NCBI GenBank assembly: GCA_005503065.1
Contig: SCOE01000003.1
Span: 186,001 to 250,000 of the forward strand
DNA: 64,000 nt
Direction: 5' to 3'
Source of the DNA: Comamonadaceae bacterium ALPHA2B
GTDB taxonomy: Bacteria; Pseudomonadota; Gammaproteobacteria; Burkholderiales; Burkholderiaceae_C
This document shows, piece by piece, positions 40,080-60,278 of this stretch (position 1 is the first letter of the stretch; the number at the start of each line of letters is the position of its first letter). Both the position numbers and the translations under genes were made by a program. A model generated the notes under the pieces. It saw nothing but the letters and a program-made list of their open reading frames with translations. It had not been told where the DNA came from and searched no databases.

Positions 40080-40094
40080 CGCTCGGACTCCGGA

Positions 40095-40223
40095 TTCGGA
40101 CGTCCGGACGCGGAAGGAAAACCAAAGTGCCGCAGAGGGCGCAGAAAAAACCCAGTCATGTTCTGGATGTCCTTTTGCGGCCTCTGCGAAACCTTCGCGC
40201 CCTCTGCGTCCGGATGGCCGTCT
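40095..40223. repeat. Long inverted repeat, family B (copy 1), liuC-DUF4126 gap
   Basis: Left arm: GTCCGGACGC...GCCGCAGAGGGCGCAG. Right arm: CTGCGAAACCTTCGCGCCC, then TCTGCGTCCGGATGGCC, with a variable centre. This copy has GGACG/CGTCC termini where the other four have GCCGAACG/CGTTCGGC. It ends next to the stop codon of liuC (40225). Confidence 0.85.
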
Positions 40224-40224
40224 C

Positions 40225-41019
40225 TCATGACTGCGTCAACCAGCTCGGCTTGCGCTTTTCGAGAAAGGACCGCAGCCCCTCGCGCGCCTCGTCGGTCGCA
40301 CGTATCGTGGCGATGCGGCGCACCGTCTCCTGCGTCAACTCGTCGGTGATGGGCTGGCCGGTCACGTCGCGCAGCAGGCGCTTGCATTCGCCCAGCGCGG
40401 CGGGCGCAGCGCCCGAAAGCGACTTGACGATCTCGTCCACCTTCGCATCGAGCGCCTCGGCCGCAACCACCTCGTGAACGAGGCCGATTCGATGCGCCTC
40501 GGCCGCCGGGAAACGCTCGGCGGTGAGGAAGTAGCGCTGCGCCGCCCGTGCACCCATCGCCCGGATCACGTACGGGCTGATCGTGGCGGGGATGAGCCCG
40601 ATCTTGACTTCGCTGAGGCAGAAGTTCGCCGTGTCGACCGAGATGGCGATGTCGCAGGCCGAGACGATGCCCATGCCGCCCGCATACACGTCGCCCTGGA
40701 TGCGCGCGACCACCGGCTTGCTGCTGTGGTGCAGGGTGCGCAGCATGGTCGCCAGGCCGGCGGCGTCCTGCAGGTTCTGCGCCTGCGTGTACTCGGCGGC
40801 CTTCTTCATCCAGTTGAGGTTGGCACCCGCACAGAAGGCCGGCCCGCGGCCGCCGAGCACGACCACGCGCACCTCGGGCGCCGCCTCGGCCTGCGCGAAA
40901 GCGGCCGAGAGTTCGCGGATGAACACGTCGTCGATGGCGTTGCGCATCTCCGGCCGGTTGAGCCAGATGCGCGCCACGGCGCCGTCCAGGTGCAGTTCGA
41001 GGGTGGTGAAGTCGTTCAT
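40225..41019 (-). CDS. liuC: Enoyl-CoA hydratase/isomerase (methylglutaconyl-CoA hydratase)
   Basis: 264 aa crotonase-fold enzyme. Oxyanion-hole segments ARIWLNRPEMRNAIDD and FCAGANLNWM, then GDVYAGGMGIVSACDIAI with catalytic residues in ISVDTANFCLSEVKIGLIPA. In the liu operon the expected step is 3-methylglutaconyl-CoA to HMG-CoA. Between it and liuB lies a DinB gene. The start is ATG at 41019. Confidence 0.9.
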   Translation of the reverse strand: MNDFTTLELHLDGAVARIWLNRPEMRNAIDDVFIRELSAAFAQAEAAPEVRVVVLGGRGPAFCAGANLNWMKKAAEYTQAQNLQDAAGLATMLRTLHHSSKPVVARIQGDVYAGGMGIVSACDIAISVDTANFCLSEVKIGLIPATISPYVIRAMGARAAQRYFLTAERFPAAEAHRIGLVHEVVAAEALDAKVDEIVKSLSGAAPAALGECKRLLRDVTGQPITDELTQETVRRIATIRATDEAREGLRSFLEKRKPSWLTQS

Positions 41020-41077
41020 GGGGTTCCTTCGGCTTCGCCTGCGGTGCGAGCCCCCTTCGGAGCGGCCGGACGGGGGC

Positions 41078-41593
41078 TCATGCCTTGGCTTTCGCGTCGA
41101 GTTGCAGGAAACGGGACCAGTCCAGCGACGGGCCTTCGTGGCCCAGCGCCGTCACGCCGGCCGTGATCTGCCCGCGGTGGTGGGTCGCGTGATTGAACAC
41201 ATGGCCCAGCGCAGGCGCGAAGGGGATGCGCGCCACCTGGCCATCGGTGCGTGTGTAGACCAGGTCGCCATCGAGCCGCGACGGGTCCATGGCCTCGGCC
41301 CAGGGCGCCCAACGGTCCGCGGCGGCGCCGAGGGCGGCGACGAGTTCGGCGCGGTCGCTGTGCAGTTCGGCATCCAGCGCGAACCGCAGCGAGGTGTTGT
41401 CCGCGAAGCGCGCGTACCAGAGGTGGTCGGCCACCAGCAGATGGTTGACGGTGCGATGCACCGAGCCGAAGAACAGGCGCAGGTCGCGGTGCCAGTCCTC
41501 GTCGCTGAGCCCTGCGAGGTCTTGTGTCAGCAGCTTGTGCGTGGCCCACGCGTGGTAGCGCGCAAGGGCGGCGAAGTAGGTTGCGAGTTGCAC
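41078..41593 (-). CDS. DinB-family protein
   Basis: 171 aa four-helix protein. Metal-type His pattern: ATYFAALARYHAWATHKLL, RTVNHLLVADHLWYARF and GHVFNHATHHRGQI. There is no suitable ATG; the GTG at 41593 starts the conserved part. DinB/YfiT-like proteins are thiol-dependent S-transferases or of unknown role. It lies between liuB (10-base gap) and liuC and is co-transcribed, although leucine catabolism does not need it. Confidence 0.85.
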   Translation of the reverse strand: MQLATYFAALARYHAWATHKLLTQDLAGLSDEDWHRDLRLFFGSVHRTVNHLLVADHLWYARFADNTSLRFALDAELHSDRAELVAALGAAADRWAPWAEAMDPSRLDGDLVYTRTDGQVARIPFAPALGHVFNHATHHRGQITAGVTALGHEGPSLDWSRFLQLDAKAKA

Positions 41594-41603
41594 CGGCCTG
41601 GCC

Positions 41604-43223
41604 TCACATGCGGAAGACGCCGAACTTCGGCTCGGGGATCGGCGCATGCCGCGCGGCGGCGAGGCCCAGCGCCAGCACGCGACGGGTGTCGGCCGGGTCG
41701 ATGATGCCGTCGTCCCACAGCCGCGCCGTGGCGTAGTAGGGGTGGCCCTGGTCCTCATACTGCTGGCGGATGGGTGCCTTGAACGCTTCTTCTTCCTCCG
41801 CGCTCCACTGTCCGCCCCTGGCCTCGATGCCGTCGCGCTTGACGGTGGCCAGCACGCTCGCGGCCTGCTCGCCGCCCATCACGCTGATGCGCGCGTTGGG
41901 CCACATCCAGAGGAAGCGCGGCGAGTAGGCGCGGCCGCACATGCCGTAGTTGCCGGCGCCGAAGCTGCCGCCGATGATGACGGTGAACTTGGGCACGTTC
42001 ACCGTGGCGACGGCCGTCACCATCTTGGCGCCGTGGCGCGCGATGCCCTCGTTCTCGTACTTGCGGCCGACCATGAAGCCGGTGATGTTCTGCAGGAACA
42101 CCAGCGGGATCTTGCGCTGGCCGCACAGCTCGATGAAATGCGCGCCCTTCTGCGCCGATTCGCTGAACAGGATGCCGTTGTTGGCCACGATGCCCACCGG
42201 CATGCCCTCGATGGAGGCGAAGCCGCAGACCAGCGTGGCGCCGAAGCGCGCCTTGAATTCGTGGAACTCGCTGCCGTCGACGATGCGGGCAATGATCTCA
42301 CGCACGTCGAAGGGCTTGCGGGTGTCGGTCGGGATCACGCCGTAGAGCTCCTCGCGGGGAAACGCCGGCTCGACCCCAGCCGTTCGGGCTGAGCTCGGCT
42401 CAGTGCGAACGGAGCGTGGTGCATTGAGGTTGGCCACGGCAGAACGCGCCAGCGCCAGCGCATGCAGGTCGTTCTGCGCCAGGTGGTCGGCCACGCCCGA
42501 CAGGCGCGTGTGCACGTCGCCACCGCCCAGGTCCTCGGCCGAAACCACCTCGCCCGTGGCGGCCTTCACCAGCGGCGGGCCGCCCAGGAAGATGGTGCCC
42601 TGGTTCTTCACGATGATGGATTCGTCGCTCATCGCCGGCACGTAGGCGCCGCCCGCCGTGCACGAGCCCATGACCACCGCGATCTGCGCGATGCCCCGGG
42701 CGCTCATGTTGGCCTGGTTGTAGAAGATGCGGCCGAAGTGCTCGCGATCGGGGAACACCTCGTCCTGGTTCGGCAGGTTGGCGCCGCCCGAATCGACCAG
42801 GTAGATGCAGGGCAGGCGGTTCTGCTCGGCGATCTCCTGCGCGCGCAGGTGCTTCTTCACCGTCATCGGGTAGTAGGTGCCTCCCTTGACGGTCGCGTCG
42901 TTGCACACGATCACGCAGTCGACACCGTTGACGCGGCCGATGCCGGTGATGACCCCGGCACCCGGCGCCGCCCCGTCGTACATGCCGTGAGCCGCCAGCG
43001 GCGAGAGTTCGAGGAAGGGCGTGCCCGGGTCGAGCAGCTGGTTCACGCGCTCGCGCGGGAGCAGCTTGCCGCGAGCCGTGTGCTTGGCCCGCGCGGCCTC
43101 GCCGCCGCCCTGCTCCACCTTCGCGAACTGCCCGCGCAAGTCGTCGACCAGCGCGCGCATGGCGGTGGCGTTGGCCTGGAACTCGGCGCTGCGGGGGTTG
43201 AGTTTGGATTCGAGTTTTGTCAT
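41604..43223 (-). CDS. liuB: Methylcrotonyl-CoA carboxylase, carboxyltransferase subunit
   Basis: 539 aa. Crotonase-like N half: [57 protein letters not shown] half: [25 protein letters not shown] and [35 protein letters not shown]. It transfers carboxyl from biotin to methylcrotonyl-CoA. Extra residues [19 protein letters not shown] near 268-286 come from an in-frame palindrome. The start is ATG at 43223. Confidence 0.95.
42380..42412. repeat. Palindrome inserted in frame in liuB
   Basis: CCGTTCGGGCTGAGC-TC-GGCTCAGTGCGAACGG (33 bases), with CCGTTCG/CGAACGG ends and CTGAG/CTCAG inside. It is a shortened relative of the REP-like palindrome in uvrA (18750-18806). It is translated as [12 protein letters not shown] between NLN and PREELYG, a place where relatives have a short linker. 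Confidence 0.8.
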
Positions 43224-43233
43224 GGGGTTACCG

Positions 43234-43379
43234 AATGCGGGAACGGGCAGCCGAACGCAGGGGGCGCAGAGATTTCGCAGAGAACGCAGAAAAGGCAAAT
43301 GAATGAAACCCAAAAATTTGGCTGTTTCTTCTGCGCCCTCTGCGCAACCTTTGCGCCCTCTGCGTTCGGCTGCCCGCAT

Positions 43380-43380
<1 letters not shown>
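43234..43380. repeat. Long inverted repeat, family B (copy 2), acyl-CoA synthetase-liuB gap
   Basis: GCAGCCGAACGCAGGGGGCG...CGCAGAAAAGG, a short A/T-rich centre, then TTCTGCGCCCTCTGCGCAACCTTTGCGCCCTCTGCG split in blocks, then TTCGGCTGC. Arms are about 50 bases. It fills the gap between liuB (starts 43223) and the upstream synthetase gene (stop 43380-43382). Confidence 0.9.
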
Positions 43381-45056
<1,676 letters not shown>

Positions 45057-45070
45057 GCTTGTCTCCAAAA

Positions 45071-45193
45071 AGCGGGATCGGACAGCCGAACGCAAAGGTC
45101 GCGAAGAGGTCGCAGAAAAAACCAAGAACTTTTTGAGTTCTTCTCTGCGCCCTTTGCGGAACCTCTGCGCCCTCTGCGTTCGGCTGTTCGTTC
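45071..45193. repeat. Long inverted repeat, family B (copy 3), liuA-synthetase gap
   Basis: GACAGCCGAACGCAAAGG...GTCGCAGAAAAAACC / TTCTCTGCGCCCTTTGCGG...CCCTCTGCGTTCGGCTGTTCG. The right arm ends at the stop of liuA (45194). Confidence 0.88.
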
Positions 45194-46366
45194 TCAGGAC
45201 GTCTCGGCGAACAGCTCGCGCCCGATCAGCATGCGCCGGATCTCCGAGGTGCCTGCGCCGATCTCGTACAGCTTGGCATCGCGCCACAGCCGCTCGACCG
45301 GGAATTCCTTCGTGTAGCCCACGCCGCCCAGCGCCTGGATTGCCTCGCCGGCCATCCAGGTCGCCTTCTCGGCCGAGTACAGGATGGCGCCGGCCGCGTC
45401 CTTGCGGAAGGTGCGCGCGTGGTCGTTGCGGTCGCAGGCCTTGCCCACGGCGTACACGTAGGCGCGCGTGGCCTGCCAGGTGGAGTACATGTCGGCGATC
45501 TTGCCCTGCATCAGCTGGAACTCGCCGATGCTCTGGCCGAACTGCTTGCGGTCGTGCACGTAGGGGATCACGGCATCCATGCACGCGGCCATGATGCCCA
45601 GCGGGCCGCCCGACAGCACGGCGCGCTCGTAGTCCAGGCCGCTCATCAGCACCTTGGCGCCGTTGCCTTCGCCGCCCAGGATGTTCTCTTCGGGCACCTC
45701 GCAGTTGTCGAAGAAGAGCGGGTAGGTGTTGCTGCCTCGCATGCCCAGCTTGTCGAGCTTGGTGCCGGCCGAGAAGCCCTTGAAGCCCTTCTCGACGATG
45801 AAGGCCGTCATGCCGCGCGCGCCCATCTCGGGCTCGGTCTTGGCGTAGATGACCAGCGTGTCGGCGTCGCCGCCGTTGGTGATCCACATCTTGCCGCCGT
45901 TGAGGACGTAATAGCCATCCTTCTTCTCGGCCCGCAGCTTCATGCTCACCACGTCGGAGCCGGCGTTGGGCTCGCTCATCGCCAGCGCGCCGACATGCTC
46001 GCCGCTCACGAGCTTGGGCAGGTACTTCTTCTTCTGCGTCTCGCTGCCGTTGCGGTGGATCTGGTTCACGCACAGGTTGGAGTGCGCGCCGTAGGAGAGG
46101 CCGACCGACGCCGACGCACGCGACACCTCTTCCATCGCCACGATGTGCGCGAGGTAGCCCAGTTCGGTGCCGCCGTATTCTTCTTTCACCGTCATGCCGT
46201 GCAGGCCCAGCGATCCGAGCTTGGCCCAGAGGTCGTGCGGAAACAGGTTGTCGCGGTCGATCTCGGCGGCGCGCGGCGCGATCTCGTGGGCACAGAAATC
46301 GGCCACCGCGTCGCGCAGCGAATCGATGGTCTCGCCCAGGTCGAAATTCAGGCCGATCTGGCTCAT
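45194..46366 (-). CDS. liuA: Isovaleryl-CoA dehydrogenase
   Basis: 390 aa flavoenzyme that oxidises isovaleryl-CoA to methylcrotonyl-CoA. [17 protein letters not shown] start; [16 protein letters not shown] (FAD/substrate); and [17 protein letters not shown] near residue 247 with the catalytic Glu in the GLDxER position that marks IVDs, unlike other acyl-CoA dehydrogenases. C-terminal [20 protein letters not shown]. First gene of the liuA-liuD operon. The start is ATG at 46366. Confidence 0.96.
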
Positions 46367-46390
46367 GCGTTGTCTCCTCGAAGGTTCAAG

Positions 46391-46528
46391 AACGCGGATA
46401 CGGGCAGCCGAACGCAGAAGGAATACAAAAACGACGCAAAGGGCGCAGCGCAGAAATTTCCATTTTTGGGATTTGCTTCTGCGCCCTTTGCGAAACCTTT
46501 GCGTCCTCTGCGTTCGGCTGTCCGTCTC
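46391..46528. repeat. Long inverted repeat, family B (copy 4), in the liuA leader
   Basis: GGGCAGCCGAACGCAGAAGG...GACGCAAAGGGCGCAG / TTCTGCGCCCTTTGCG, AAACCTTTGCGTCC, TCTGCGTTCGGCTGTCC. Lies 25 bases upstream of the liuA start in the gap shared with the divergent AraC gene, so it must lie in the liuA 5' leader or promoter. Confidence 0.88.
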
Positions 46529-46567
46529 CGGCTTGGCCGCAGCTTACGCCGCCCCTTCCCGCATTTG

Positions 46568-46596
46568 GCGCCACAATGGTTGCAAATTGCGCCACA
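46568..46596. promoter_or_regulatory. Direct repeats, candidate AraC operator
   Basis: GCGCCACA occurs at 46568-46575 and again at 46589-46596, exactly 21 bases (two helical turns) apart, with similar flanks (TTG-/ATT-). AraC-type regulators bind such direct repeats. It lies just before the AraC gene start and in the only repeat-free part of the liuA promoter region. Confidence 0.5.
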
Positions 46597-46611
46597 TCCA
46601 TCCGTTCCGCA

Positions 46612-47637
46612 ATGACTGCATCCACCCTCGTCAAGCCGCCCCGTGCAGCCACGCCGATGGCCTTCGTGCAGGCGATCGTGAAAGGGTATGCGCGCCATGG
46701 CGTCGATCCCGGCGCGGCCCTGCGGGCGGCACAGATCACGCCGCGTGAGCTGTGGCGGCCGGGCGCCCGCGTAACCGCGGCCCAGTTCGAGGCGCTGAAC
46801 GAACACGCGATGCAGGAGCTCGACGACGAGGCGCTGGGCTGGTTCGGCCGCAAGCTGCCCTGGGGCAGCTACGGCATGCTGTGCCGCGCCTCGCTCACCT
46901 CGCCGAACCTGGGCGTGGCGATCCGCCGCTGGTGCCGCCACCACCGGCTGCTGGTGGACGACATCGCGCTGTCGCTCACGGTGTCGAACGGCGAAGCCAC
47001 CGTCCACATCGAGGAGCGGCGCGACCTCGGGGCCTTCCGCGAGTTCTGCCTGGTGTCGAGCCTGCGCTTCCTGCACGGCTACGCGAGTTGGGCGATCGAT
47101 TCACGCGTGTCGTTGCGCAACGCCTGCTTTCCCTACCCGGCACCGGCGCATGCCGAGGCCTACCCGCTGATGTTCACCGGCCGCGTGCAATTCGATGCAC
47201 CGCGGGCGAGCTTCAGCTTCGACGAGCGCTACCTGGCGCTGCCGATGATGCGCGACGAACGCGCACTGCGAACCATGCTGCGACGCGCTCTCCCGTTGAC
47301 GGTTCTGCAGTACCGGCGCGACCGGCTGCTGGGACAGCGCGTGCGCGAACTGCTGCGCACGCACGGGACCGAACTCACGAATGCCGAGGCCATCGCCACC
47401 GCGCTTCACGTCTCCAGCCGCACGCTGCACCGCCAATTGCAGGCCGAAGGACTGTCGCTGCAGGCGCTCAAGGACGAGGTGCGGCACGAGACGGCCGTCG
47501 ACCAGTTGCGCCGAAGCGAACGGCCGATCAAGCAGATCGCGCTCGCGGTTGGCTTTCGCAACGAGAAAAGCTTCGCGCGGGCCTTTCGCCAATGGACCGG
47601 CATGACGCCCGGCGAGATGCGCCGGGGCGGCGCCTGA
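46612..47637 (+). CDS. AraC-family transcriptional regulator (OruR/ArgR type)
   Basis: 341 aa. N-terminal Arabinose_bd-like domain (MAFVQAIVKGYARHGVDPGAAL), then C-terminal HTH_18: EAIATALHVSSRTLHRQLQAEGLSLQALKDEVRHETAVDQL, then IKQIALAVGFRNEKSFARAFRQWTGMTPGEMR. ATG at 46612 is preferred to ATG 46576, because the direct repeats 46568-46596 would fall inside a longer reading frame. It is divergent from liuA and is the likely activator of that operon. Confidence 0.9.
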   Translation: MTASTLVKPPRAATPMAFVQAIVKGYARHGVDPGAALRAAQITPRELWRPGARVTAAQFEALNEHAMQELDDEALGWFGRKLPWGSYGMLCRASLTSPNLGVAIRRWCRHHRLLVDDIALSLTVSNGEATVHIEERRDLGAFREFCLVSSLRFLHGYASWAIDSRVSLRNACFPYPAPAHAEAYPLMFTGRVQFDAPRASFSFDERYLALPMMRDERALRTMLRRALPLTVLQYRRDRLLGQRVRELLRTHGTELTNAEAIATALHVSSRTLHRQLQAEGLSLQALKDEVRHETAVDQLRRSERPIKQIALAVGFRNEKSFARAFRQWTGMTPGEMRRGGA

Positions 47638-47649
47638 GCGGCAGGTGGC

Positions 47650-47865
47650 TCAGGCGCCGGCGTCCGTGTGCGGATGCAACTGCGCGTTGAGTGCGCGCGT
47701 GCCGGCCGCCAGAGCGGCCTCGTAGGACTCGAACGAGTCTTCCGCGCGGCGCGCGACCTGGGTCGGCGTGCCGTCGGCATCGGTTTCCATCAGGGTCCAC
47801 AGGAAGGCGCCGGGGCTGGCTTCCTGCACCTGGAGTCGAACGGATGGATGGGTCATGGCCGACAT
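47650..47865 (-). CDS. Small conserved-looking protein, 71 aa
   Basis: Begins at ATG 47865 or 47856 (MTHPSVRL). Sequence SVRLQVQEASPGAFLWTLME then EDSFESYEAALAAGTRALNAQ suggests a small alpha/beta fold; I do not recognise a family. It converges with the AraC gene (12-base gap to 47637). Confidence 0.5.
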   Translation of the reverse strand: MSAMTHPSVRLQVQEASPGAFLWTLMETDADGTPTQVARRAEDSFESYEAALAAGTRALNAQLHPHTDAGA

Positions 47866-47936
47866 CTTGAGCGCCGGCCCGGGGCCCTGCTGTCAGCCGA
47901 ATTCGCCGATGGCGTCGGCCGCGTTGGACACCAGGC

Positions 47937-48242
47937 TCAACGCAGCGAGGCCTGGAACGCAGGCTGGGCCGTGGGCAACGGCATCCCCGGTGCCCAGGCC
48001 GCCGCCGGATCGTGCACGGGCGGACCGAAGGCCTGAACGGCCATCATCCCCAGGCGGGTGATCTCGAACACCACCGCAGGCGCCTGCTCCTCGTGCCCAC
48101 CCAGTCCCTGCCGCGCCGGCGGGATCTGCGCACGCACCTGGCCCGCGGCCTGCAAGGCGCGCAGCTTGTCGATGTCGGCCGGGTCGTCGATGCGCATCGG
48201 CAGCGGTGCGCGGGCCAGTGCATGGAGCAATTCCAGAGGCAT
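47937..48242 (-). CDS. Small hypothetical protein, 101 aa
   Basis: Start ATG 48242 with AAGGAGA 7 bases upstream on the minus strand, which supports this start. MPLELLHALARAPLPMRIDDPADIDKLRALQAAGQVRAQIPP looks like a short winged-helix-type segment (DKLRALQAAGQV), followed by a Pro/Ala-rich tail. Function unknown. Confidence 0.6.
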   Translation of the reverse strand: MPLELLHALARAPLPMRIDDPADIDKLRALQAAGQVRAQIPPARQGLGGHEEQAPAVVFEITRLGMMAVQAFGPPVHDPAAAWAPGMPLPTAQPAFQASLR

Positions 48243-48449
48243 GCATGTTCTCCTTGCAGGAGCCACGATTCTTCTGCGCTTCATGCACCGAAGCAAGATA
48301 AGCCATAGGTGTTAGCGCTCGCTCCATGCCCCGCGCACCGCACATCGCTTCAGGCCTGTTTCCAGGTCTCGATGCCGCGTTGGATCACGCACATGCGCTG
48401 TCGAAGGCCACGCCTTCGATGTGCTTGCCCGCCATGCGCGGGTCGGGCA

Positions 48450-49145
48450 TCAGGCTCGCTGGGCGGGCCGAAAGGCGGCGAGTTCGGCCGGGAGCCGCGC
48501 CATGTCGGTGAACACACGCGCCACGCCGATGGCGCGCATCGCGTCTGCACCGCTGTGGCCGAGGCCGCCTGGGCTGTAGCCGAAGACCGTGGCGCCGGCG
48601 GCGATGCCGGCGCTCGCGCCGGTCACCGTGTCCTCGACCACGGCGCAGCGCACGGGATCGACGCCGAGCGCGCTCGCTGCGGCCAGATAGACGTCCGGGT
48701 AGGGCTTGCTGCGCGGCGTCTCGTGGCCGCTGAAGATCCGGCCCTGGAAGGCATCCAGCAGGCCGATCTTGGCCAGCTGCAGTTCGACCTTGCGGCGGTC
48801 GGCCCCCGAGGCACAGGCGATGCGGCCGTCCAGGCGCTCATGCAGCGCCCGCACCGCCTCGGCGGCTCCCGGAATGGGCACGAGCTCGCGCTCGAGCGCC
48901 TCGTTGCGCCGCGCCCAGAATGTCGAGAGCCAGTCCTGGGTGAGCCTGAAACCCGTCTTCGCCTCGATCAGCGCCATCTCGTCCTTCACGGCCTTGCCGA
49001 CGAAGATGCGCATGGTCTCCTCGACCGTCAGCTGCCACCCGAGCTCGCCGAGCATCTCGGTGAGCACGCGGTTGGTGATGGGCTCGGAGTCGACGAGCAC
49101 GCCGTCGCAGTCGAAGAGAACGGCATCGAATGAAAGCGCGGCCAT
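48450..49145 (-). CDS. HAD-superfamily phosphatase (beta-phosphoglucomutase/phosphoglycolate-like)
   Basis: 231 aa. Motif I LFDCDGVLVDSEPI (DxD nucleophile); cap from about residue 16-90; motif II CASGADRRK; motif III KPYPDVYLAAA; motif IV VEDTVTGASAGIAAGATVFGYSPGG. This fits subclass IA phosphatases acting on small sugar phosphates. The start is ATG at 49145. It stands alone between small genes. Confidence 0.92.
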   Translation of the reverse strand: MAALSFDAVLFDCDGVLVDSEPITNRVLTEMLGELGWQLTVEETMRIFVGKAVKDEMALIEAKTGFRLTQDWLSTFWARRNEALERELVPIPGAAEAVRALHERLDGRIACASGADRRKVELQLAKIGLLDAFQGRIFSGHETPRSKPYPDVYLAAASALGVDPVRCAVVEDTVTGASAGIAAGATVFGYSPGGLGHSGADAMRAIGVARVFTDMARLPAELAAFRPAQRA

Positions 49146-49240
49146 CGCGTGAGGGCTCCTTGCAGCACAACGGAATCGGGGGGCACCGGCATCGTACCCG
49201 CGCCGGACCCGCCCCGCGGGCTGCCAGGGTTCGGGCCGGT

Positions 49241-50212: not shown

Positions 50213-50222
50213 GGCGGCCTCG

Positions 50223-51059
50223 CTATTCGGCCGTGCCGTTGCCCGTCGGCCGCGCCTCGGCGCGCAGCGCGGTCGAGCCGACCAGACTCAGGTCGGAGAA
50301 GTAGGCCAGGCCGTGGCCGTGCGTGTTGTCGGCATCGGCCGAGACGACCACCGCCACCACGTCGGGCGTGGCGCCCTGCGCCTCGCCGCCGAAGGCGCGG
50401 CGGTAGTCGGCCAGCAGGTTGCGGCGCTCGCCCACCCAGGTGCCGGGCCGCGCAGCGGGGCCGGATTCCAGCACCACCATATGCATGCGGTTGGTGAAGG
50501 CATTGACCAGCATCTGGCCCTTGGCATCCTTGCCGTCCCACACGTAGCAGAGGGCCTCGCTGGGCACGTCCTCGCCCGAGACGCCGCGCGCCACCGCGAG
50601 GCGCGTGCGCTCGATCAGCGGCAGCCGGTCGGCCGGGAAGTCGAAGAACACGCACAGCTTGGCCGCGCCGTCGTCGCCCGCACGGGTGTGCAGGTCGGCC
50701 CCTTCGACGAATTGGTCCACGCGCCAGCGCCAGCTCAGCACCGTCGATTCGTTCAGCGGCATCTGCACGCGGTGCGCGAGCAGGCCGTAGGAATCGCTGG
50801 CCTCCACCTTGAGCACGCGGCGTCCGTCCTCGGACACGACGTCGAATCGCGTCGGCGTCTTGTTCGGCAGCGTGCTGAAGTGCCAGGGCGCCGGCGGCAC
50901 GGCGCCGGCCGCAGCCGAGAAGGGCGTCAGCGAATGCGGCTCCTCGGCCCGCGCATGGGGCGCAGCCAGGCCCAGAACCAGCAGCGCGCCCGCGAGCAGG
51001 CTCGCGCCGCGGCGGACGGCGGCGGCGCGGGCGGCAGCAAAAGCGGTGGTGCGGTGCAT
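50223..51059 (-). CDS. DUF3047 exported protein
   Basis: 278 aa. Signal peptide to about residue 42 (PHARAEE). The body has WRWRVDQFVEGADLHTRAGDDGAAKLCVFFDFP, then ALCYVWDG, the DUF3047 pattern. Periplasmic, role unknown. ATG at 51059 follows AGGGA. A (TGGCGA)n tract lies 11 bases upstream and could influence expression by length change. It ends 10 bases before the DedA-rhodanese gene and may share its operon. Confidence 0.85.
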   Translation of the reverse strand: MHRTTAFAAARAAAVRRGASLLAGALLVLGLAAPHARAEEPHSLTPFSAAAGAVPPAPWHFSTLPNKTPTRFDVVSEDGRRVLKVEASDSYGLLAHRVQMPLNESTVLSWRWRVDQFVEGADLHTRAGDDGAAKLCVFFDFPADRLPLIERTRLAVARGVSGEDVPSEALCYVWDGKDAKGQMLVNAFTNRMHMVVLESGPAARPGTWVGERRNLLADYRRAFGGEAQGATPDVVAVVVSADADNTHGHGLAYFSDLSLVGSTALRAEARPTGNGTAE

Positions 51060-51070
51060 GGTCGGATCCC

Positions 51071-51100
51071 TGGCGATGGCGATGGCGATGGCGATGGCGG
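51071..51100. repeat. Hexanucleotide tandem repeat (TGGCGA)x4 plus one imperfect unit
   Basis: Four exact TGGCGA units and a fifth TGGCGG, just upstream of the DUF3047 ribosome-binding site. Codon-neutral length changes of 6 bases would alter spacing in the leader. Confidence 0.9.
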
Positions 51101-51206
51101 TTGTCGGTGTTGTGGCCCTGACGCGGCCTGGAGGGGTGCCCGCGCGAGCATGGGAGAAAGTGTGCCGCAGCGCAGCAGGCGGATAAATCCCCCAAAAGGA
51201 ATCACT

Positions 51207-51227
51207 TTGTCTCCCTGGTGCAGACAA
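51207..51227. promoter_or_regulatory. Inverted repeat TTGTCT-N9-AGACAA upstream of DUF3047
   Basis: Six-base arms separated by nine bases, in an A+T-rich stretch about 150 bases upstream of the DUF3047 gene where its promoter is expected. Regulator unknown, so this is a weak operator candidate. Confidence 0.35.
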
Positions 51228-51250
51228 TCCGCATATAACGCTCTCCTTTT

Positions 51251-51297
51251 CATAGCACCCTGCGTCCGTCCCGCGGTCGTCGCAGGCCGATTCGCTT
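51251..51297. repeat. Degenerate family A repeat
   Basis: TTCATAGC at one end, a decayed GCGTCCGTCCC/GCGGTCGTCGC centre, and GGCCGATTCGCTT at the other end. It lies just beyond the stop end of the YchJ gene (51314). Recognisable only by comparison with the other copies. Confidence 0.4.
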
Positions 51298-51313
51298 CGG
51301 AAGCGATGGCGCT

Positions 51314-51790
51314 TCAGCCGCCGAGCCTCCCGTCGACGTAGTACCAGCGCCCGCCCTCGCGCACGAAGCGGCTGTGCTCGACCAGCCGCGAGGCCCGACC
51401 CGTCGCATCGCGCGAACGGGCGACGAACGCGACTTCGGCATGCGTGGCGTCAATGGGCAGGTGCGCCTTGACCTGCAGCCCCAGCCACTGCTGCGCCGGA
51501 TCGAGCGAGAGCGTGTCGGGGCGCGTGTCCGGATGCCAGGTGGCGAGCAGGTAGCCGGCATCGCCCAGCACGAAGGCGGCGTAGCGCGAGCGCATCAGTG
51601 CCTCGGCATCGGGCGCGGCCGGGCTGCCGTCCGCCATCGGGCCGACGAAGCGACCGCAGCAATCGCCGAAGGCCCGCACCTTCGCCTTGCCAGCGGCGGC
51701 CGTGCGACCACAGGGGCACGGGTCCGCGGCCGCGGGTCGCGGCCAACCTGCGCTGGAGAAGCGGGAAGAGGCGGCGCCTTGCTCAGCCAC
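51314..51790 (-). CDS. YchJ-family protein
   Basis: 158 aa. The N-terminal DPCPCGRTAAAG...FGDCCGRFVG carries the SEC-C-like zinc Cys residues; the core LMRSRYAAFVLGDAGYLLATWHPDTRP and SRFVREGGRWYYVDG are typical YchJ. Starts with GTG at 51790 and overlaps the end of the HtrA-like gene by 8 bases, implying coupled translation. Role unknown in this family. Confidence 0.88.
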   Translation of the reverse strand: MAEQGAASSRFSSAGWPRPAAADPCPCGRTAAAGKAKVRAFGDCCGRFVGPMADGSPAAPDAEALMRSRYAAFVLGDAGYLLATWHPDTRPDTLSLDPAQQWLGLQVKAHLPIDATHAEVAFVARSRDATGRASRLVEHSRFVREGGRWYYVDGRLGG

Positions 51791-52739
51791 CGGGAGTCAC
51801 CGTCAGAACCATGGCCGTGAGCGTACCCGCGACGGGCCGCAGCAGCTTGAGCAGCAGCGGCCGGCCATAGCCCTCGCCCGCCAGGCGCTTGAGCAGGTCC
51901 GACAGCTGTGCCAGCGGCACGCCGTCGCAGCCGACCAGGATGTCGCCCTCGCGCAGGCCGCCGCGCGCCGCCGCCGAGCCGGCCGCCACGCCCATCAACC
52001 GCACGCCGGTGGCCACCGGCCAGTCGTTCTCGCGCACCCAGCGCCGCGGCAGGGGCACCGCCGCGCACTGCACGCCCAGGCGGCCGCGCCGCACCGTGCC
52101 GTGCCGCATCAGTTCGCCGGCCACCCAGCGCGCGGTATCGACCGACACCGCGAAGCTCAGGCCCTGCGCGGAGGGAATCACGGCCGTGTTGACGCCGATG
52201 ACCTGCGCCGCCCCGTCGAGCAGCGGCCCGCCGGAATTGCCCGGGTTGAGGGCCACGTCGGTCTGGACCACGTCCTCGATCATCCGGCCGCCGCGCGCGT
52301 GCAGGCTGCGGCCCAGCGCGCTCACGATGCCGGCGGTGACGGTGAAGTCGAAGCCCAGGGGATTGCCCACCGCCACGGCGAGTTGCCCCGGCCGCAGTTG
52401 CGCCGAACTGCCCAGCGGCAGGAAGGCGGCCGGGTGGGATTCGAGGCGCAGCACGGCGATGTCGGTCGAGGCGTCCTGCCCCACCAGCCGCGCCATGCCT
52501 TCGCTGCCGTCGGCGAAGGCGGCGCGCAGCTCGCCGGCGCCCTCCACCACGTGCGCGTTGGTCAGCGCGAAGCCGTCGGGCGTGAACAGGAAGCCCGAGC
52601 CGCTGCCGCCCGCCGCGGCCGCGCCGTCGCCCGCCTTGCGGCGCACCTTGATGTGCGCCACCGCCGCGCTGGCGGTCTCGGCCACGCGGGTGACGGTGGC
52701 GGAGTAGGAATCGGGAAAGAAATCGTCGCGTGCGCCCAT
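51783..52739 (-). CDS. HtrA/DegP-type serine protease (S1C) without a signal peptide
   Basis: 318 aa. Trypsin-like domain: NAHVV with His63, STDIAVLRL with Asp93, GNSGGPLL with Ser169. One PDZ domain follows (VRLMGVAAGSAAARGGLREGDILVGCDGVPL). The N-terminus MGARDDFFPDSYSATVTRVAETA lacks any signal peptide or membrane helix, so the protein appears cytoplasmic, unlike DegP/DegQ. Its stop overlaps the start of the YchJ gene. Confidence 0.9.
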   Translation of the reverse strand: MGARDDFFPDSYSATVTRVAETASAAVAHIKVRRKAGDGAAAAGGSGSGFLFTPDGFALTNAHVVEGAGELRAAFADGSEGMARLVGQDASTDIAVLRLESHPAAFLPLGSSAQLRPGQLAVAVGNPLGFDFTVTAGIVSALGRSLHARGGRMIEDVVQTDVALNPGNSGGPLLDGAAQVIGVNTAVIPSAQGLSFAVSVDTARWVAGELMRHGTVRRGRLGVQCAAVPLPRRWVRENDWPVATGVRLMGVAAGSAAARGGLREGDILVGCDGVPLAQLSDLLKRLAGEGYGRPLLLKLLRPVAGTLTAMVLTVTPGG

Positions 52740-52801
52740 GGCCGTGTCCTGCTTGAAGCGGACAGTTGGAGGCGCACGCGCGCGCTTTCAACCGGGACGG
52801 T

Positions 52802-54886
<2,085 letters not shown>

Positions 54887-54955
54887 ATCGATTGTGCGGA
54901 GGCCGGCTGGGCCCGTCAACCGCGACCCTGCCGCCTCGCCGCCGCAGCGGCCGAG

Positions 54956-56089
54956 TCAGGCCAGCGCACGCTGGATCAACAGCTTCTGGATGTCCGAGGT
55001 GCCTTCGTAGATCTGGCACACGCGCACGTCGCGGTAGATGCGCTCCAGCGGGAAGTCGTTGACGTAGCCATACCCGCCGAGCGTCTGGATGGCGGCGCTG
55101 CACACGCGCTCGGCCATCTCGCTGGCGAAGAGCTTGGCCATGGCCGCTTCCTTGAGGCAGGGCCGGCCGGCATCGCGCAGCGCGGCGGCGTGCCAGATGA
55201 GCTGGCGCGCCGCCTCGATCTGCGTGGCGCAGTCGGCGAGACGAAAGCCCACGGCCTGCTGCTCGAAGATGGGACCGCCGAAGGCCGTGCGTTCCTTGGC
55301 GTAGTTCACCGCGAACTCGAAGGCGCTGCGGGCCATGCCCACGCTCTGCGCCGCGATGCCGATGCGCCCGCCTTCGAGCGCGCCCAGGGCGATCTTGTAG
55401 CCCTCGCCTTCCCGGCCGATGAGGTTCTCGGCCGGAATGCGGCAGTTGTCGAAGTTGATGAGTGCGGTGTCGCTCGAATGCTGGCCCAGCTTGTCTTCCA
55501 GACGCGCCACGGTGTAGCCCGACGCGTCGGTCGGCACGAGGAAGGCGCTCATGCCCTTCTTGCCCGCGGCCTTGTCGGTCATGGCGATGACGATGGCGAC
55601 CTGGCCGTTCTTGCCGCTGGTGATGAACTGCTTGGTGCCGTCGATGACGTAGCCGCCTTCTGCGTCCTTGCGCGCCGTCGTGCGCAGGCTCGATGCATCG
55701 CTGCCTGCCTGCGGTTCGGTGAGGCAGAAGGCGCCGAGCATCCGGCCCTGCGCCAGCGGCTCGAGCCACTGCTTCTTCTGCTGCGCGTTGCCGTAGCGCA
55801 TGAGGATGGCGTTGACGGGGCAGTTGGTGACGCTGATGGCGGTGCTGGTGCCGCCGTCGCCAGCCGCGATCTCCTCGAGCACGAGCGCGAGCGTCAGGTA
55901 GTCCAGCCCCGCGCCGCCGTGCTCCTCGGGCACGCAGATGCCGTAGGCGCCCAGCGCCGCCAGGCCCTGGTGCGCCTCCTTCGGGAAACGATGCTCGCGG
56001 TCCCACTGCGCGGCGTGGGGCCACAACTCGGCCCGGGCGAACTCGCGAACCGCGTCGCGGATGGCTTCCTGGTCGGGGGTCAGCAGCAT
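54956..56089 (-). CDS. Acyl-CoA dehydrogenase (short/branched-chain)
   Basis: 377 aa. TPDQEAIRDAVREFARAELWP start, FCLTEPQAGSDASSLRTTA, QFITSGKNGQVAIVIAMTD, and the C-terminal catalytic Glu motif QIYEGTSDIQKLLIQRALA (YEGT). The C-terminal Glu position fits butyryl-/short-chain members rather than IVD. The neighbouring thiolase (58175) and PPOX genes suggest fatty-acid or branched-chain oxidation. The start is ATG at 56089. Confidence 0.93.
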   Translation of the reverse strand: MLLTPDQEAIRDAVREFARAELWPHAAQWDREHRFPKEAHQGLAALGAYGICVPEEHGGAGLDYLTLALVLEEIAAGDGGTSTAISVTNCPVNAILMRYGNAQQKKQWLEPLAQGRMLGAFCLTEPQAGSDASSLRTTARKDAEGGYVIDGTKQFITSGKNGQVAIVIAMTDKAAGKKGMSAFLVPTDASGYTVARLEDKLGQHSSDTALINFDNCRIPAENLIGREGEGYKIALGALEGGRIGIAAQSVGMARSAFEFAVNYAKERTAFGGPIFEQQAVGFRLADCATQIEAARQLIWHAAALRDAGRPCLKEAAMAKLFASEMAERVCSAAIQTLGGYGYVNDFPLERIYRDVRVCQIYEGTSDIQKLLIQRALA

Positions 56090-56118
56090 GGGACAGTCTC
56101 CGGTGCGCCGTCGGCGCT

Positions 56119-56185
56119 ATGTTTTTGATAGCTGCTTACGCCCGTGGGATGGGCGCTGCAGGCACGTTTGGCTTGAAATCCGCAA
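56119..56185. repeat. Dispersed palindromic repeat, family A (copy 3)
   Basis: ATGTTTTTGATAGCTGC, then ACGCCCGTGGGATGGGCGCTGC, GGC and TTTGGCTTGAAA. Full-length, orientation as at 14760. It lies in the gap between the acyl-CoA dehydrogenase start and the PPOX stop. Confidence 0.8.
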
Positions 56186-56187
56186 CC

Positions 56188-56826
56188 TCAAGAGGCCGAC
56201 GGCGTCTGCTCCTCGACGAGCTGCGCCCGGTAACGCGCCATCGTCTGTACGTCGGTTTCGCCCGAGGAACCCACGGTGCCGATCTGCTCGCGGATCATCT
56301 GGTTCATGGTCGGCAACGCATCGCGCGGCCCCCAGCTGTCGGGTTGCCACAGCTGCGAACGCATGAAGGCCTTGGCGCAATGCAGGTAGGCCTCGCGCAC
56401 CGCGACCTCGATCACCAGCTTGGGCCGCTGGCGCTCCTGTGCGAAGGCGTCGACGAACTCGGCCTCGTCGCGCAGCCGCGCCGTGCCGTTGACGCGCAGC
56501 GTCTCGTCCACGCCCGGGACCATGAAGATCAAAGCCACGCGCGGATCGGCGATGAGGTTCTCCAGCGTGTCGAGCCGGTTGTTGCCGCCCGAGTCAGGCA
56601 GCAGCAGCGTGGCGCCGTCCTCCGATGCCTTGACGAAGCCCGGCGCACCGCCGCGCGGCGAGGCGTCGAGCAGTGCGGCGCCTTGCCCCGCGCTGGCGAT
56701 CACGCAGAAGGGTGCCAGCGCCACGAAGCGCCGGCCGTGCACGTCGAGCCGGTCGAGCTGCTTGCGCACGGCGCGTTCGCCAGGCTGGGCGTACAGCTTG
56801 CGCAATTGGGCGAGATCGGTGATCAC
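56188..56826 (-). CDS. Pyridoxamine 5'-phosphate oxidase-family flavoprotein
   Basis: 212 aa split-barrel FMN protein. RFVALAPFCVIASAG, DPRVALIFMVPGVDETLRVNGTARL and the C-terminal PKLVIEVAVREAYLHCAKAFMRSQLW fit the MSMEG_1061-type PPOX family. Starts at GTG 56826, after the M20 stop by 14 bases. The substrate is not inferable; possible deazaflavin or haem-related reductase activity. Confidence 0.85.
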   Translation of the reverse strand: MITDLAQLRKLYAQPGERAVRKQLDRLDVHGRRFVALAPFCVIASAGQGAALLDASPRGGAPGFVKASEDGATLLLPDSGGNNRLDTLENLIADPRVALIFMVPGVDETLRVNGTARLRDEAEFVDAFAQERQRPKLVIEVAVREAYLHCAKAFMRSQLWQPDSWGPRDALPTMNQMIREQIGTVGSSGETDVQTMARYRAQLVEEQTPSAS

Positions 56827-56840
56827 GTGCGCGCCGCCCC

Positions 56841-58091
56841 CTACTTGCCCTGGCCCAGGTCCATGATCAGGCGCGTGGCCATGTACAGGCGGCGCGGGAT
56901 GGCGTCGATCTGCACGTACTCGGCCTTGTCGCTGTGGTAGCCGAAGCCCGGCAGGCCCAGGCTCTCGATGGTGGGCTTGCCCGACAGCGCGGCGTAGGCG
57001 GCGTCGGTGCCGCCGCCGGTGCGCTCCTCGATGGCAAGCGTGCCGCCAGCCTCCTTGTAGTAGCCCACGGCCTTCTCGACCAGCAGCTTGCCCGCGGCGC
57101 CGGCATCGAAGGCCGGACGGCCGCGCGTGATCAGCAGCTTGACCTCGGCGTCGGGCAGCTTCTTCTTCTGCGCGCGCTCTTCCAGCGTCTTCATCGCGGC
57201 TTCGAAGTCTTCGTTGCGCGCATAGCGCACGTCGGCGTTGAGCGTGGCGCTGTCGGGAATGATGTTGCTCACCGCGCCGGCCTTGGCGATGGTCCAGTTG
57301 AAGCGCAGGCCACGGGCCTTGTCGTCGATGTCCAGCGTGCGCTGCACCAGGTCGGCGGCCTCGACCAGCGCGTTGACGCCCAGCTCGGGCGCGGCGCCCG
57401 CATGCGAGGCCTTGCCCTTGATGTTGGCCTGCACGTAGGCGATGCCCGAGGTGCCGAGCGTGAAGCTTTCCTTCAGCGCCGAGGTCGGCTCGAAGGACAG
57501 CACGTAGTCGGCCTTGGCGGCCTCTTCCTGGATCAGGTCGCGCGAGCCGAAGGAGCCCTTCTCCTCGTCGGTGTTGAACAGCACGGTGATCGTGCCGAAG
57601 CCCTGGAAACCGCGCGCCTTCAGCAGCTTCAGGCTGTGCAGCACCACGGCGTTGCCGCCCTTGTCGTCGGCGATGCCGGGCCCGTAGGCCTTGTCGCCTT
57701 CCACGCGGAAGGGCGCCTTGGCCAGGATGCCCTTGAGGTAGACGGTGTCCATGTGCGAGATCAGCAGCAGGTTCTTGCCGCCCTTGCCCTGCAGCTTGCC
57801 CACGATGTTGTCGCCCACCACCATGCCGGCCGACTTGCTGCGCGTGACGGTGAAGCCCAGCGCCTTGAGCTGGTCCTCGAAGTACTTGCCGGCCGCGGCC
57901 ATCCCCTCGGCGTCGCCGGTGCCGGTCTCGATGTTGACCAGCTGTTCCAGCGTCTTCACGACGGCGGGCTGCTCGTCGGTCGCGGCCTTGAACAGCGCCT
58001 CGTCGCGCTGCTGCGCGAAGGCCGCGGGCGCGACGAAGGCGGCGGCCAGCAGGCCGGCGAGGACGGAACGATGGAGGCGGGGTGCGGACAT
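56841..58091 (-). CDS. Exported M20-family metallopeptidase (carboxypeptidase G2-like)
   Basis: 416 aa. A signal peptide ends at AAFAQQ (about residue 26). Metal site: HMDTVY, GPGIADDKGGNAVVL, and NTDEEKGSFGSRD with the catalytic Glu. The dimerisation (lid) domain is present: ARGLRFNWTIAKAGAVSNIIP. It cleaves folate/glutamate-type or dipeptide substrates in the periplasm. The start is ATG at 58091. It shares a minus-strand run with the PPOX gene. Confidence 0.93.
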   Translation of the reverse strand: MSAPRLHRSVLAGLLAAAFVAPAAFAQQRDEALFKAATDEQPAVVKTLEQLVNIETGTGDAEGMAAAGKYFEDQLKALGFTVTRSKSAGMVVGDNIVGKLQGKGGKNLLLISHMDTVYLKGILAKAPFRVEGDKAYGPGIADDKGGNAVVLHSLKLLKARGFQGFGTITVLFNTDEEKGSFGSRDLIQEEAAKADYVLSFEPTSALKESFTLGTSGIAYVQANIKGKASHAGAAPELGVNALVEAADLVQRTLDIDDKARGLRFNWTIAKAGAVSNIIPDSATLNADVRYARNEDFEAAMKTLEERAQKKKLPDAEVKLLITRGRPAFDAGAAGKLLVEKAVGYYKEAGGTLAIEERTGGGTDAAYAALSGKPTIESLGLPGFGYHSDKAEYVQIDAIPRRLYMATRLIMDLGQGK

Positions 58092-58119
58092 GCGGTGTCT
58101 TTCTTGTCGGTCGCGGTTC

Positions 58120-58174
58120 TATGGATAAAAAGTGGCTGCAACGCCCGTCCAGCGGGCGCCACAAGCTATCAAAA
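58120..58174. repeat. Dispersed palindromic repeat, family A (copy 4)
   Basis: GTGGCTGCAACGCCCGTCC, then AGCGGGCGCCACAAGCTAT, ending CAAAATC. Orientation as at 3855. It lies between the M20 start and the thiolase stop and abuts the thiolase stop codon. Confidence 0.7.
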
Positions 58175-59359
58175 TCAGAGCAATTCGATGGCCACGGCCG
58201 TGCCTTCGCCACCGCCGATGCACAGCGTGGCGACGCCACGCTTCAGGCCCCTGGACTGCAGCGCGTGGATCAGCGTGACCATGATGCGCGCGCCGCTGGC
58301 ACCGATGGGGTGGCCCAGTGCGCAGGCGCCGCCGTGCACGTTGACGATGTCGTGCGACACGCCGAGCTCGGTCATCAGCGCCATCGGCACGACGGCGAAG
58401 GCCTCGTTCACCTCCCACAGGTCGACGTCCTTCACGCCCCAGCCGGTCTTGGCGAAGAGCTTCTGCACGGCGCCCACCGGCGCGGTGGAGAACCACTCGG
58501 GCTGCTGCGCGTGCGTGCTGTGCGCGACGATGCGCGCGATGGGCTTCCCGCCGATCTTCTGCGCGTGGGACGCGGTGCTCATCACCAGCGCGGCGGCACC
58601 GTCGTTGATGGACGAGCTGGAGGCCGCGGTGATGGTGCCGCCGTCCTTCTTGAAGGCCGGCTTGAGCGTGGGGATCTTGTCGAGCTTGACCTTGCCGGGG
58701 CCTTCGTCGATGGCGATCACCGTGTCGCCGCCGCGGCCCTTCACGGTCACCGGCGCGATCTCGGTCTTGAACAGGCCGTCCTTCGTCGCATGCTGCGCGC
58801 GCTGCACGCTGGCGATGGCGAATTCGTCCTGCTGCTCGCGCGTGAACTGGTACTTGGCGGCGCAGTCCTCGCCGAAGGTGCCCATGCTGCGGCCGGGCTG
58901 GTAGGCGTCTTCCAGGCCGTCGAGCATCATGTGGTCGAAGATGCGGTCGTGGCCCATGCGGTAGCCGCCACGGCCCTTGAGCATGAGGTAGGGCGCGTTG
59001 GTCATGCTTTCCATGCCGCCGGCGACCACGCAATCGTGCGTGCCGGCCAGCAGCAGGTCGTGCGCGAGCATCGCGGCCTTCATGGCCGAGCCGCACATCT
59101 TGCTGAGCGTGACCGCGCCCGCGCTGTCGGGCAGGCCGCCCTTGTAGGCCGCCTGGCGCGCGGGCGCCTGGCCCTGGCCGGCCATCAGGCAGTTGCCGAA
59201 CAGCACCTCGCCCACCGCGTCGGGCGCGATGCCGGCGCGCTCGACCGCCGCCTTGATCGCGACGCCGCCGAGGTCGTGCGCAGCCAGCGACGCGAAGTCG
59301 CCCTGGAAGCTGCCCATGGGGGTGCGCGCGGCACCGAGGATGACGATGGATTCGGACAT
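58175..59359 (-). CDS. Acetyl-CoA C-acetyltransferase (thiolase)
   Basis: 394 aa. Acyl Cys89 in LSKMCGSAMKA; SGMES-like VVAGGMESMTNAP; NEAFAVVPM; His in ACALGHPIGASGARI; second Cys region LCIGGGEGTA. A length of 394 is normal. It could finish leucine degradation (acetoacetate) or beta-oxidation. ATG at 59359 follows CAGGAGACCC. The gap toward the carbonic anhydrase gene is a family B repeat. Confidence 0.95.
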   Translation of the reverse strand: MSESIVILGAARTPMGSFQGDFASLAAHDLGGVAIKAAVERAGIAPDAVGEVLFGNCLMAGQGQAPARQAAYKGGLPDSAGAVTLSKMCGSAMKAAMLAHDLLLAGTHDCVVAGGMESMTNAPYLMLKGRGGYRMGHDRIFDHMMLDGLEDAYQPGRSMGTFGEDCAAKYQFTREQQDEFAIASVQRAQHATKDGLFKTEIAPVTVKGRGGDTVIAIDEGPGKVKLDKIPTLKPAFKKDGGTITAASSSSINDGAAALVMSTASHAQKIGGKPIARIVAHSTHAQQPEWFSTAPVGAVQKLFAKTGWGVKDVDLWEVNEAFAVVPMALMTELGVSHDIVNVHGGACALGHPIGASGARIMVTLIHALQSRGLKRGVATLCIGGGEGTAVAIELL

Positions 59360-59383
59360 GAGGGTCTCCTGGAGAGGTTCAAT

Positions 59384-59512
59384 AAGCCGGACAGCCGAAC
59401 GCGGAGGGCGCAAAGGCTTCGCAGAGGGCGCAGAAGAAGACATTGAATGACATTGCTTTCCTTCTGCGTTCTCTGCGTGATCTTTGCGACCTCTGCGTTC
59501 GGCTGCCCGCAT
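59384..59512. repeat. Long inverted repeat, family B (copy 5)
   Basis: GACAGCCGAACGCGGAGGGCG...GCAGAGGGCGCAGAAG / CTTCTGCGTTCTCTGCG...TGCGACCTCTGCGTTCGGCTGC. The right arm ends exactly at the carbonic anhydrase stop codon. Gives the same 50-base-arm architecture outside the liu operon. Confidence 0.9.
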
Positions 59513-60208: not shown

Positions 60209-60278
60209 GGCGTCGATTTTCTGTATTTGGATGCCGGATGGCGAACGGGGAGACGGGAAGAAGGGGACGGGGGCAGGG

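Follow-up and report, generated by a model that had tools for sequence, protein, structure and literature searches.

The 64,000-nucleotide stretch of Comamonadaceae bacterium ALPHA2B analysed here (contig SCOE01000003.1, positions 186,001 to 250,000), referred to as the window, carries five copies of a long palindromic repeat, family B, which is dispersed through the whole genome. We propose that family B is probably a non-autonomous population of palindromes maintained by a GxxExxY protein, a PD-(D/E)XK nuclease-like enzyme whose part would include recognition of the repeat, cutting, and repair favouring matching copies. The GxxExxY gene lies outside the window, on another contig of the source genome (C62), where an element of ~490 bp was found to be a family B palindrome enclosing an open frame. 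The enclosed frame encodes a GxxExxY protein (TIGR04256; PF13366; PD-(D/E)XK superfamily), which scored 133.4 bits against a cut-off of 35, and it is the only gene seen inside a family B palindrome. To our knowledge the GxxExxY family has no assigned function; its members often begin with repeat-coded tags, a point that was used here as a lead only.

The family B repeat is ~140 bp long and consists of two ~57-nt arms around a ~20-nt centre, each arm combining an outer box, which in the main type reads GRANNCGGACAGCCGAACG, with four CGCAGAGG-like units (-N) at a spacing of 9, 11 and 9 bp. Per-letter conservation in the source genome was 0.93-1.00 in the first unit and 0.88-1.00 in the CGC of all units, with 0.54-0.96 in the other inner-unit letters and 0.50-0.64 in the spacers; outside the CCG box conservation runs on for ~12 nt and then ends. 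A covariance model trained on 34 family B copies of the source genome, four of the five window copies among them, had five matches in the window and no more, every one of them on both strands (E 8.5e-23 to 1.5e-35), at palindrome lengths of 128-149 bp. The first-pass annotation of the window had claimed five long palindromes, with starts that proved to be off by at most 6 bases, and its description of differing centres in a dispersed family of long palindromes was borne out; its right arm as the exact reverse of the left was not, the arms being inexact. Since the whole source genome holds 142 arm sites and only 2 for a reversed-pattern control, a chance origin of the repeats is excluded. The repeats are also present in related genomes. 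No Rfam family matched any of the five copies at gathering scores.

Fifteen genomes of the genus were compared, the source genome (G000; 6.0 Mb in 91 contigs) and relatives that include G071, G250, G253, G254, G256 and G257, and the repeats were found in six of them. The unit pattern was counted 195 times in G000, 246 in G250, 184 in G256, 40 in each of G071 and G254, and 33 in G257; in the other nine genomes counts were 4-9, near the reversed control. A second unit type, CGCGAAGG, occurred 172 times in G071, 174 in G254 and 147 in G257, with 26 matches in G256 and 11 in G000; the other ten genomes had 5-14. The covariance model gave 147-150 matches in the same six genomes (both strands counted, at most 150 candidates scored), one borderline match in G253, and none in the other eight. 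PF13366 was present in all six repeat-positive genomes; the nine repeat-negative ones were without it. All six cassettes occupy one locus, with the gene inside a palindrome, and in the source genome the cassette has a chorismate-binding gene (trpE-like) on one side and a gene for a class-I glutamine amidotransferase (trpG-like) on the other. In each of the six there is a possible open reading frame of 149-152 codons, its start within an ATGA that overlaps the upstream stop, by which the left arm could be translated as the N-terminus of the protein. All six keep the PD-(D/E)XK residues RADF...ELK (Asp ... Glu-x-Lys). Exact matches to the type I repeat were also met in Ramlibacter and Variovorax, among the matches listed, and in Ramlibacter monticola, which is rich in type I repeats, the gene has arms of type I and is arranged likewise (it is cut by the end of the locus). 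A sequence search for a solved structure of a relative gave none; the gene had no match in phage records at E 1e-5, nor among viral contigs in a scan that reached close relatives only.

The tie between gene and repeat extends beyond the genus. In 250 genomes of the bacterial family, PF13366 was found in 17, and a generic unit-pair pattern, CGCRRARGNCGCRRARG, was counted with zero mismatches. At least 30 pairs were present in nine genomes (G000 177, G071 197, G015 159, G035 217, G064 124, G083 30, G097 305, G113 103 and G207 181); all nine carry PF13366, and the highest count among the 233 PF13366-negative genomes was 10 (G066), giving a Fisher value of 2.7e-12 that is uncorrected for the relatedness of the genomes. 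Within-genus contrasts were seen in genera g1, g16 and g97, the positive species of the last two having both gene and repeats and their sampled sisters (2 and 1) having neither. In the carrier G013, a total of 240 kb showed, besides the palindrome of the gene, one dispersed palindrome of the genome's own arm type; none was present in 160 kb of a sister genome without PF13366. Two other genomes, G098 and G171, had unusually many matches to the reversed control (37 and 32), perhaps from another repeat family.

PF13366 was also found in 57 of 299 genomes of the phylum. An arm test, in which the inverted similarity of the gene flanks was compared with 237 displaced windows at a threshold of the 99th percentile, was applied to six genus loci, 16 family loci and the 30 best-scoring loci of the phylum search, all of which belong to seven genera of a single other family, f32, and are no sample of the phylum; 29 of the 30 were readable, one having no downstream flank. 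Arms above threshold surround the gene at 6/6 loci in the genus, 13/16 in the family and 22/29 in f32, or 41 of 51 in total. The catalytic Asp is kept at all 41 armed loci, and at the three armless family loci (L302, L303, L304) it is replaced by Gly in each case. Because the PD-(D/E)XK motif is present, and is lost where the arms are lost, we infer that the protein recognises and cuts the repeat. The arm units themselves vary widely among loci (CACGAAG, CACAGAGG, CACAGATG, CGCAGAGT, CACGGAA and others). In a plasmid collection eight records from several phyla matched the gene, which lies between same-direction genes in all six that are annotated, and inverted repeats were found on both sides at three loci (Gemmatirosa, Bernardetia and Bacteroides finegoldii). 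As separate observations, the armless Asp-to-Gly genes L302, L303 and L304 stand before a trpG-like gene and were possibly retained for a non-nuclease role, and the plasmid genes of Prevotella and a Fusobacterium (L400, L402) have flanking repeats that by eye are direct, not inverted.

The repeats occur in three types, and so do the arms of the cassettes, which are type I in G000, type II in G250 and G256, and type III in G071, G254 and G257. In G071, where elements were sampled by means of the type III pattern, 48 of 54 elements were III/III, five I/I and one mixed, and within ortholog groups type III was found in 32 of 37 G071 elements and type I in 44 of 44 G000 elements. The G250 sample was drawn with the type I model; a contiguous 400 kb of that genome, not picked by type, held eight elements (four II/II, three I/I, one mixed). 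In 200 contiguous kb of G256, from contigs that had figured in earlier match lists, there were seven (four II/II, two I/I, one mixed), three of which form a known cluster, and 200 contiguous kb of G257 held no elements; three matches judged false by eye are left out of these contiguous counts. By genome-wide counts, types I and III are the prevailing ones in their genomes; type II accounts for about half of the elements in its two, with a few type II boxes also in G000, including window copy 1. On these counts, the gene's own arms were shown to be of the prevailing type of its genome (I, III) or of one that accounts for about half of the elements (II).

Trees of two other loci place G257 with G000 (support 1.00 and 0.60), and G250 is parted from G256 by the second (0.98) and left unresolved by the first. 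The tree of the GxxExxY protein groups G257 with G071 and G254 (1.00), and G250 with G256 (0.999). Judged by these trees, repeat type was shown to go with the nuclease allele rather than with the species tree. At the trp locus the cassettes have an identity of 0.65-0.81 between types, and their flanks are mostly 0.87-0.99 identical, except for windows of broken alignment. Since the protein tree conflicts with two other loci and the cassette diverges more than its flanks, the cassette was probably exchanged between lineages.

The change of type could also be followed at single sites. Among 173 distinct elements there were 47 groups with both flanks common between genomes; the stretches compared were mostly chosen for holding elements, and no rate of site sharing is derivable from them. 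The centres were compared in ortholog pairs, which are non-independent and exclude G071-G254 pairs. Same-type orthologs had centres with a mean similarity of 0.754, 24 of 32 pairs falling in the top 5% of background, and orthologs of differing type had a mean of 0.519, with 10 of 77 pairs in that class. Between the near relatives G257 and G000 three same-type sites were 95-100% identical and three of differing type 56-71%, at flank identities of 95.7% and 95.9%, respectively (three sites each). Since the differing sites are this dissimilar while their flanks match those of same-type sites, switching appears to replace nearly the whole element and to leave the flanks. Same-type sites are taken to be inherited because their centres are common in 24 of the 32 ortholog pairs, and independent insertion at hot spots was rejected on the same count. 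Conversion of the arms alone was dropped as an explanation, as differing-type sites usually have no common centre. Two pairs with long centres (L025/L111 and L043/L118) are suggestive only, and in L025/L111 the inserted repeat is in opposite orientation; apparently inside the family B centre at L025 is one copy of a second repeat family, of GCGCCCGTCC / GATAGCTGC type.

The elements are closely bound to the ends of genes. With gene direction judged from codon-position GC, which was checked on six window stretches, 139 of 154 elements in G000, G071 and G250 lie between same-direction genes, seven between convergent and five between divergent ones, two are unclear, and one had too little flank; the same-direction excess has p=1.4e-7 against an assumed baseline of 0.75, which is not the genome's own. 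The upstream stop codon was read as the first one in frame within the last ~160 nt, and in 149 of 152 tandem cases drawn from six genomes it ends from 20 nt before to 6 nt after the element edge. Window copies 1, 2, 3 and 5 overlap stop codons, copy 4 being an exception in divergent position. One clean empty site was found, where a G071 element is compared with G250 and G000: the insert stands between CACTGA and CATGGG, directly after the stop TGA, with flanks of 94-97% identity. TGA stands on either side of the insert, possibly a target duplication, at this one site, the other comparisons being too divergent or deletion scars. Short scars with only the outer ends (e.g. CGGATGTCCG) are seen at L091 in G257 and L105 in G000, where relatives hold the full element, pointing to deletion between the arms.

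In the mechanism that we propose, the GxxExxY protein would recognise the CGCRRAGG units, or a hairpin or cruciform formed by them, and would cut at the recognised units; repair would then swap a non-matching element for a matching one. A newly acquired nuclease allele might thereby rewrite the repeat population, and rare new insertions would arise next to stop codons in operons.

Several observations weigh against this proposal. Type I copies are still common in the type II genomes and type III genomes retain some, and arms with both unit types occur in 20 of 136 cases in G000 (also in 8 of 64 in G250 and 5 of 108 in G071). No within-genome donor was found for a switched site, the nearest paralog being at most 0.885 identical in the part of each population that was sampled; simple copying from another sampled site was therefore not seen, and the new copy could stem from one outside the sample, from the DNA of a relative, or from synthesis that creates a new centre. 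Eight of the 17 PF13366 carriers in the family are without the generic pattern: in three (G012, G122 and G215, with 1, 2 and 3 matches) the gene is armless and Gly replaces Asp, three have other arm types (G013 and G224, one match each, with arms of CACAGAGG and CCACAGATG type that are invisible to the generic pattern, and G100, three matches, with CCAAGG-type arms), and two have few copies (G019 with 7 matches, G164 with 5). Seven of the 29 readable f32 loci fall below the arm threshold, all with Asp kept and some with short arms, and five of the eight plasmid loci have no clear inverted arm pair (one has a 5' arm only by eye, four none clear). Lastly, the six positive genus members are about one clade, and the genus contrast counts once.

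One alternative is that GxxExxY is a passenger captured into one palindrome, and that the palindromes are moved by another enzyme. Some family B centres do hold other sequence, including another repeat family, so inserts occur, and these genomes do carry a Y1 (RAYT-type) gene, a candidate mobiliser of the kind that the first-pass annotation had suggested looking for. However, one Y1 gene is found in 14 of the 15 genus genomes, including eight of the nine without repeats, and 3.3 kb at the six RAYT loci of repeat-positive genomes contained neither a unit pair nor a box, whatever its type; the eight RAYT loci of repeat-negative genomes gave stray box matches in four and a unit pair in none. As both the gene distribution and the sequence of its loci speak against it, RAYT was rejected as the mobiliser, and as far as tested it is excluded as the partner. 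Neither would a passenger account for the presence of PF13366 in 9/9 repeat-rich genomes with no such genome among the 233 negatives, for the different arm sequences that surround the gene in another family, or for the loss of Asp where arms are lost, and we regard this explanation as unlikely. The single-copy Y1 gene (L031, L052-L060) itself has, among the loci listed, conserved GTCCCC / GACCCC motifs downstream, for which no dispersed partner was identified; it is followed at L031 by a motif like the GCGCCCGTCC / GATAGCTGC family, and its downstream gene is presumably gltB-like.

It might instead be supposed that GxxExxY is a sequence-specific DNA-binding regulator with ~100 intra-operon sites, where selection for binding keeps the arms and a change of type is the result of co-evolution by point mutation. 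The better conservation of unit letters than of spacers, the position of elements in tandem gene pairs (139 of the 151 classified) and the two-unit-type arms mentioned above would all suit a regulator, but point mutation of units would not cause differing-type sites usually to be without a common centre where same-type sites have one, and a regulator of this kind seems quite unlikely. Equally improbable in our judgement is that a change of type marks an allele brought in from another strain by homologous recombination and selected for fit with the resident nuclease, with no rewriting in place. It is favoured by the failure to find a within-genome donor and by the nuclease cassette itself, which seems to have changed hands; the flanks, however, are equal at differing-type and same-type sites in the G257-G000 comparison, and any imported tract must for that reason end close to the element. 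The first-pass annotation had expected the repeats to form very long RNA hairpins or cruciforms; selection of the repeat as an RNA hairpin was also rejected. Hairpins of -63.7 to -99.0 kcal/mol, with no shuffle control, were predicted for the five copies on both strands, but sense-strand mismatches in tandem elements were G.U in 363 and A.C in 391 cases, showing no G.U excess, and the likeness of an element's own arms did not exceed that of arms from different elements in three larger samples (the smallest sample, G256 with n=7, gave p=0.03). RNA-level selection is thus not supported by these comparisons.

Maintenance of family B by the GxxExxY protein would be REPIN/RAYT-like in logic, with an unrelated enzyme. 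REPINs are described as many extragenic inverted doublets with a variable spacer, accompanied by a single-copy enzyme gene that has the same repeats next to it, and enzyme-bearing genomes are richer in repeats (PMC3116915, PMC8049555). Family B is likewise a many-copy extragenic inverted doublet with a variable spacer, with a single-copy enzyme gene that has its own repeats and with more repeats in the genomes that have the enzyme. Unlike REPINs, family B repeats do not lie beside the Y1 RAYT gene, which is present irrespective of them. The partner enzyme is a PD-(D/E)XK protein and not a Y1 transposase, the palindrome encloses its gene, whose frame can run through an arm, the arms are built of four purine-rich units of 9-11 nt, and the elements abut stop codons of tandem genes and follow in type an exchangeable allele. 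The cassette gene is a plain member of GxxExxY TIGR04256 / PDDEXK_3 PF13366, passing the curated cut-off and having the RADF...ELK motif. Like homing endonuclease genes, it is a small gene for a nuclease that is set within the presumed target, and alleles are exchanged at a fixed locus; unlike them, no intron or intein was seen, the targets are ~100 and dispersed, and cleavage is a prediction from the motif. For cutting followed by repair from a matching copy, it is the expected outcome that was observed, at the cassette and at sites of differing type. Family B resembles miniature inverted-repeat transposable elements (MITEs) and ERIC-type elements in being 100-150 bp long, palindromic, intergenic and patchy, and departs from both in how strongly it is tied to the stop codons of tandem gene pairs and in that no parent transposase was identified in a survey confined to Y1.

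In the open-access literature no report was found that links GxxExxY, PF13366 or TIGR04256 to palindromic repeats. Among the matches listed, open-access full text held nothing on repeats with these unit strings, and papers on Xenophilus, Ramlibacter or Variovorax repeats and on concerted evolution of repetitive extragenic palindromic (REP) sequences held nothing on family B. The first-pass annotation had mentioned such repeats in related genomes with no assigned role; the lack of a role may now give way to a strong candidate partner, the GxxExxY (PD-(D/E)XK) gene. The window copies are listed in Table 1 with other features noted in the same stretch.

Table 1. Family B palindromes of the window, their neighbouring genes, and other features observed
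Feature	Position	Strand	Characteristics	Neighbouring genes
Family B copy 1	40089..40228	.	Divergent; CCGGACG at both ends; variant arm AAGGAAAACCAAAG; without CAGCCGAACGC box; covariance model	Overlaps stop codon of upstream enoyl-CoA hydratase gene (minus, 40225-41019)
Family B copy 2	43236..43384	.	Type I; covariance model	Overlaps AMP-binding enzyme stop codon (minus, 43380-45056); upstream of carboxyl transferase gene (41604-43223)
Family B copy 3	45071..45198	.	Type I; covariance model	Overlaps acyl-CoA dehydrogenase stop codon (minus, 45194-46366)
Family B copy 4	46393..46532	.	Type I; covariance model	Exception: divergent spacer between acyl-CoA dehydrogenase gene and AraC-type regulator (46612-47637, plus)
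Family B copy 5	59380..59517	.	Type I; covariance model	Overlaps carbonic anhydrase stop codon (minus, open reading frame 59513-60346); upstream of thiolase gene (58175-59359)
Second repeat family, GCGCCCGTCC / GATAGCTGC type	14747-14840; 15350-15386; 25798-25856		Probably family A of the first-pass annotation	
TPP riboswitch	54781-54889	minus	Rfam match at gathering score	
SAH riboswitch	546-614	minus	Rfam match at gathering score	
Diverged direct repeats	15498-21241		Several families ~1.1-1.7 kb apart, as from repeated domains of a very long gene or tandem paralogs	

More generally, GxxExxY nucleases may be behind widespread and unexplained purine-rich palindromes of bacteria (CGCAGAGG, CGCGAAGG, CACAGAGG, CACGAAG, CACAGATG and similar), each allele imposing its own type by replacing non-matching copies, as a sequence-matching drive at ~100 intra-operon sites. 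This wider reading is tentative, and we place it slightly below the point of balance rather than at it because the 30 phylum-search loci come from a single further family. Under this proposal, a protein family that so far has just a motif for a name receives a function that can be tested, and palindromic repeats that had been left unassigned receive a cause. If the drive is true, one small gene would set the sequence of ~100 non-coding sites, which an allele change at one locus would rewrite, and bacteria would have, besides the repeats of RAYT, a second population that is kept by an enzyme, and by one unrelated to RAYT.

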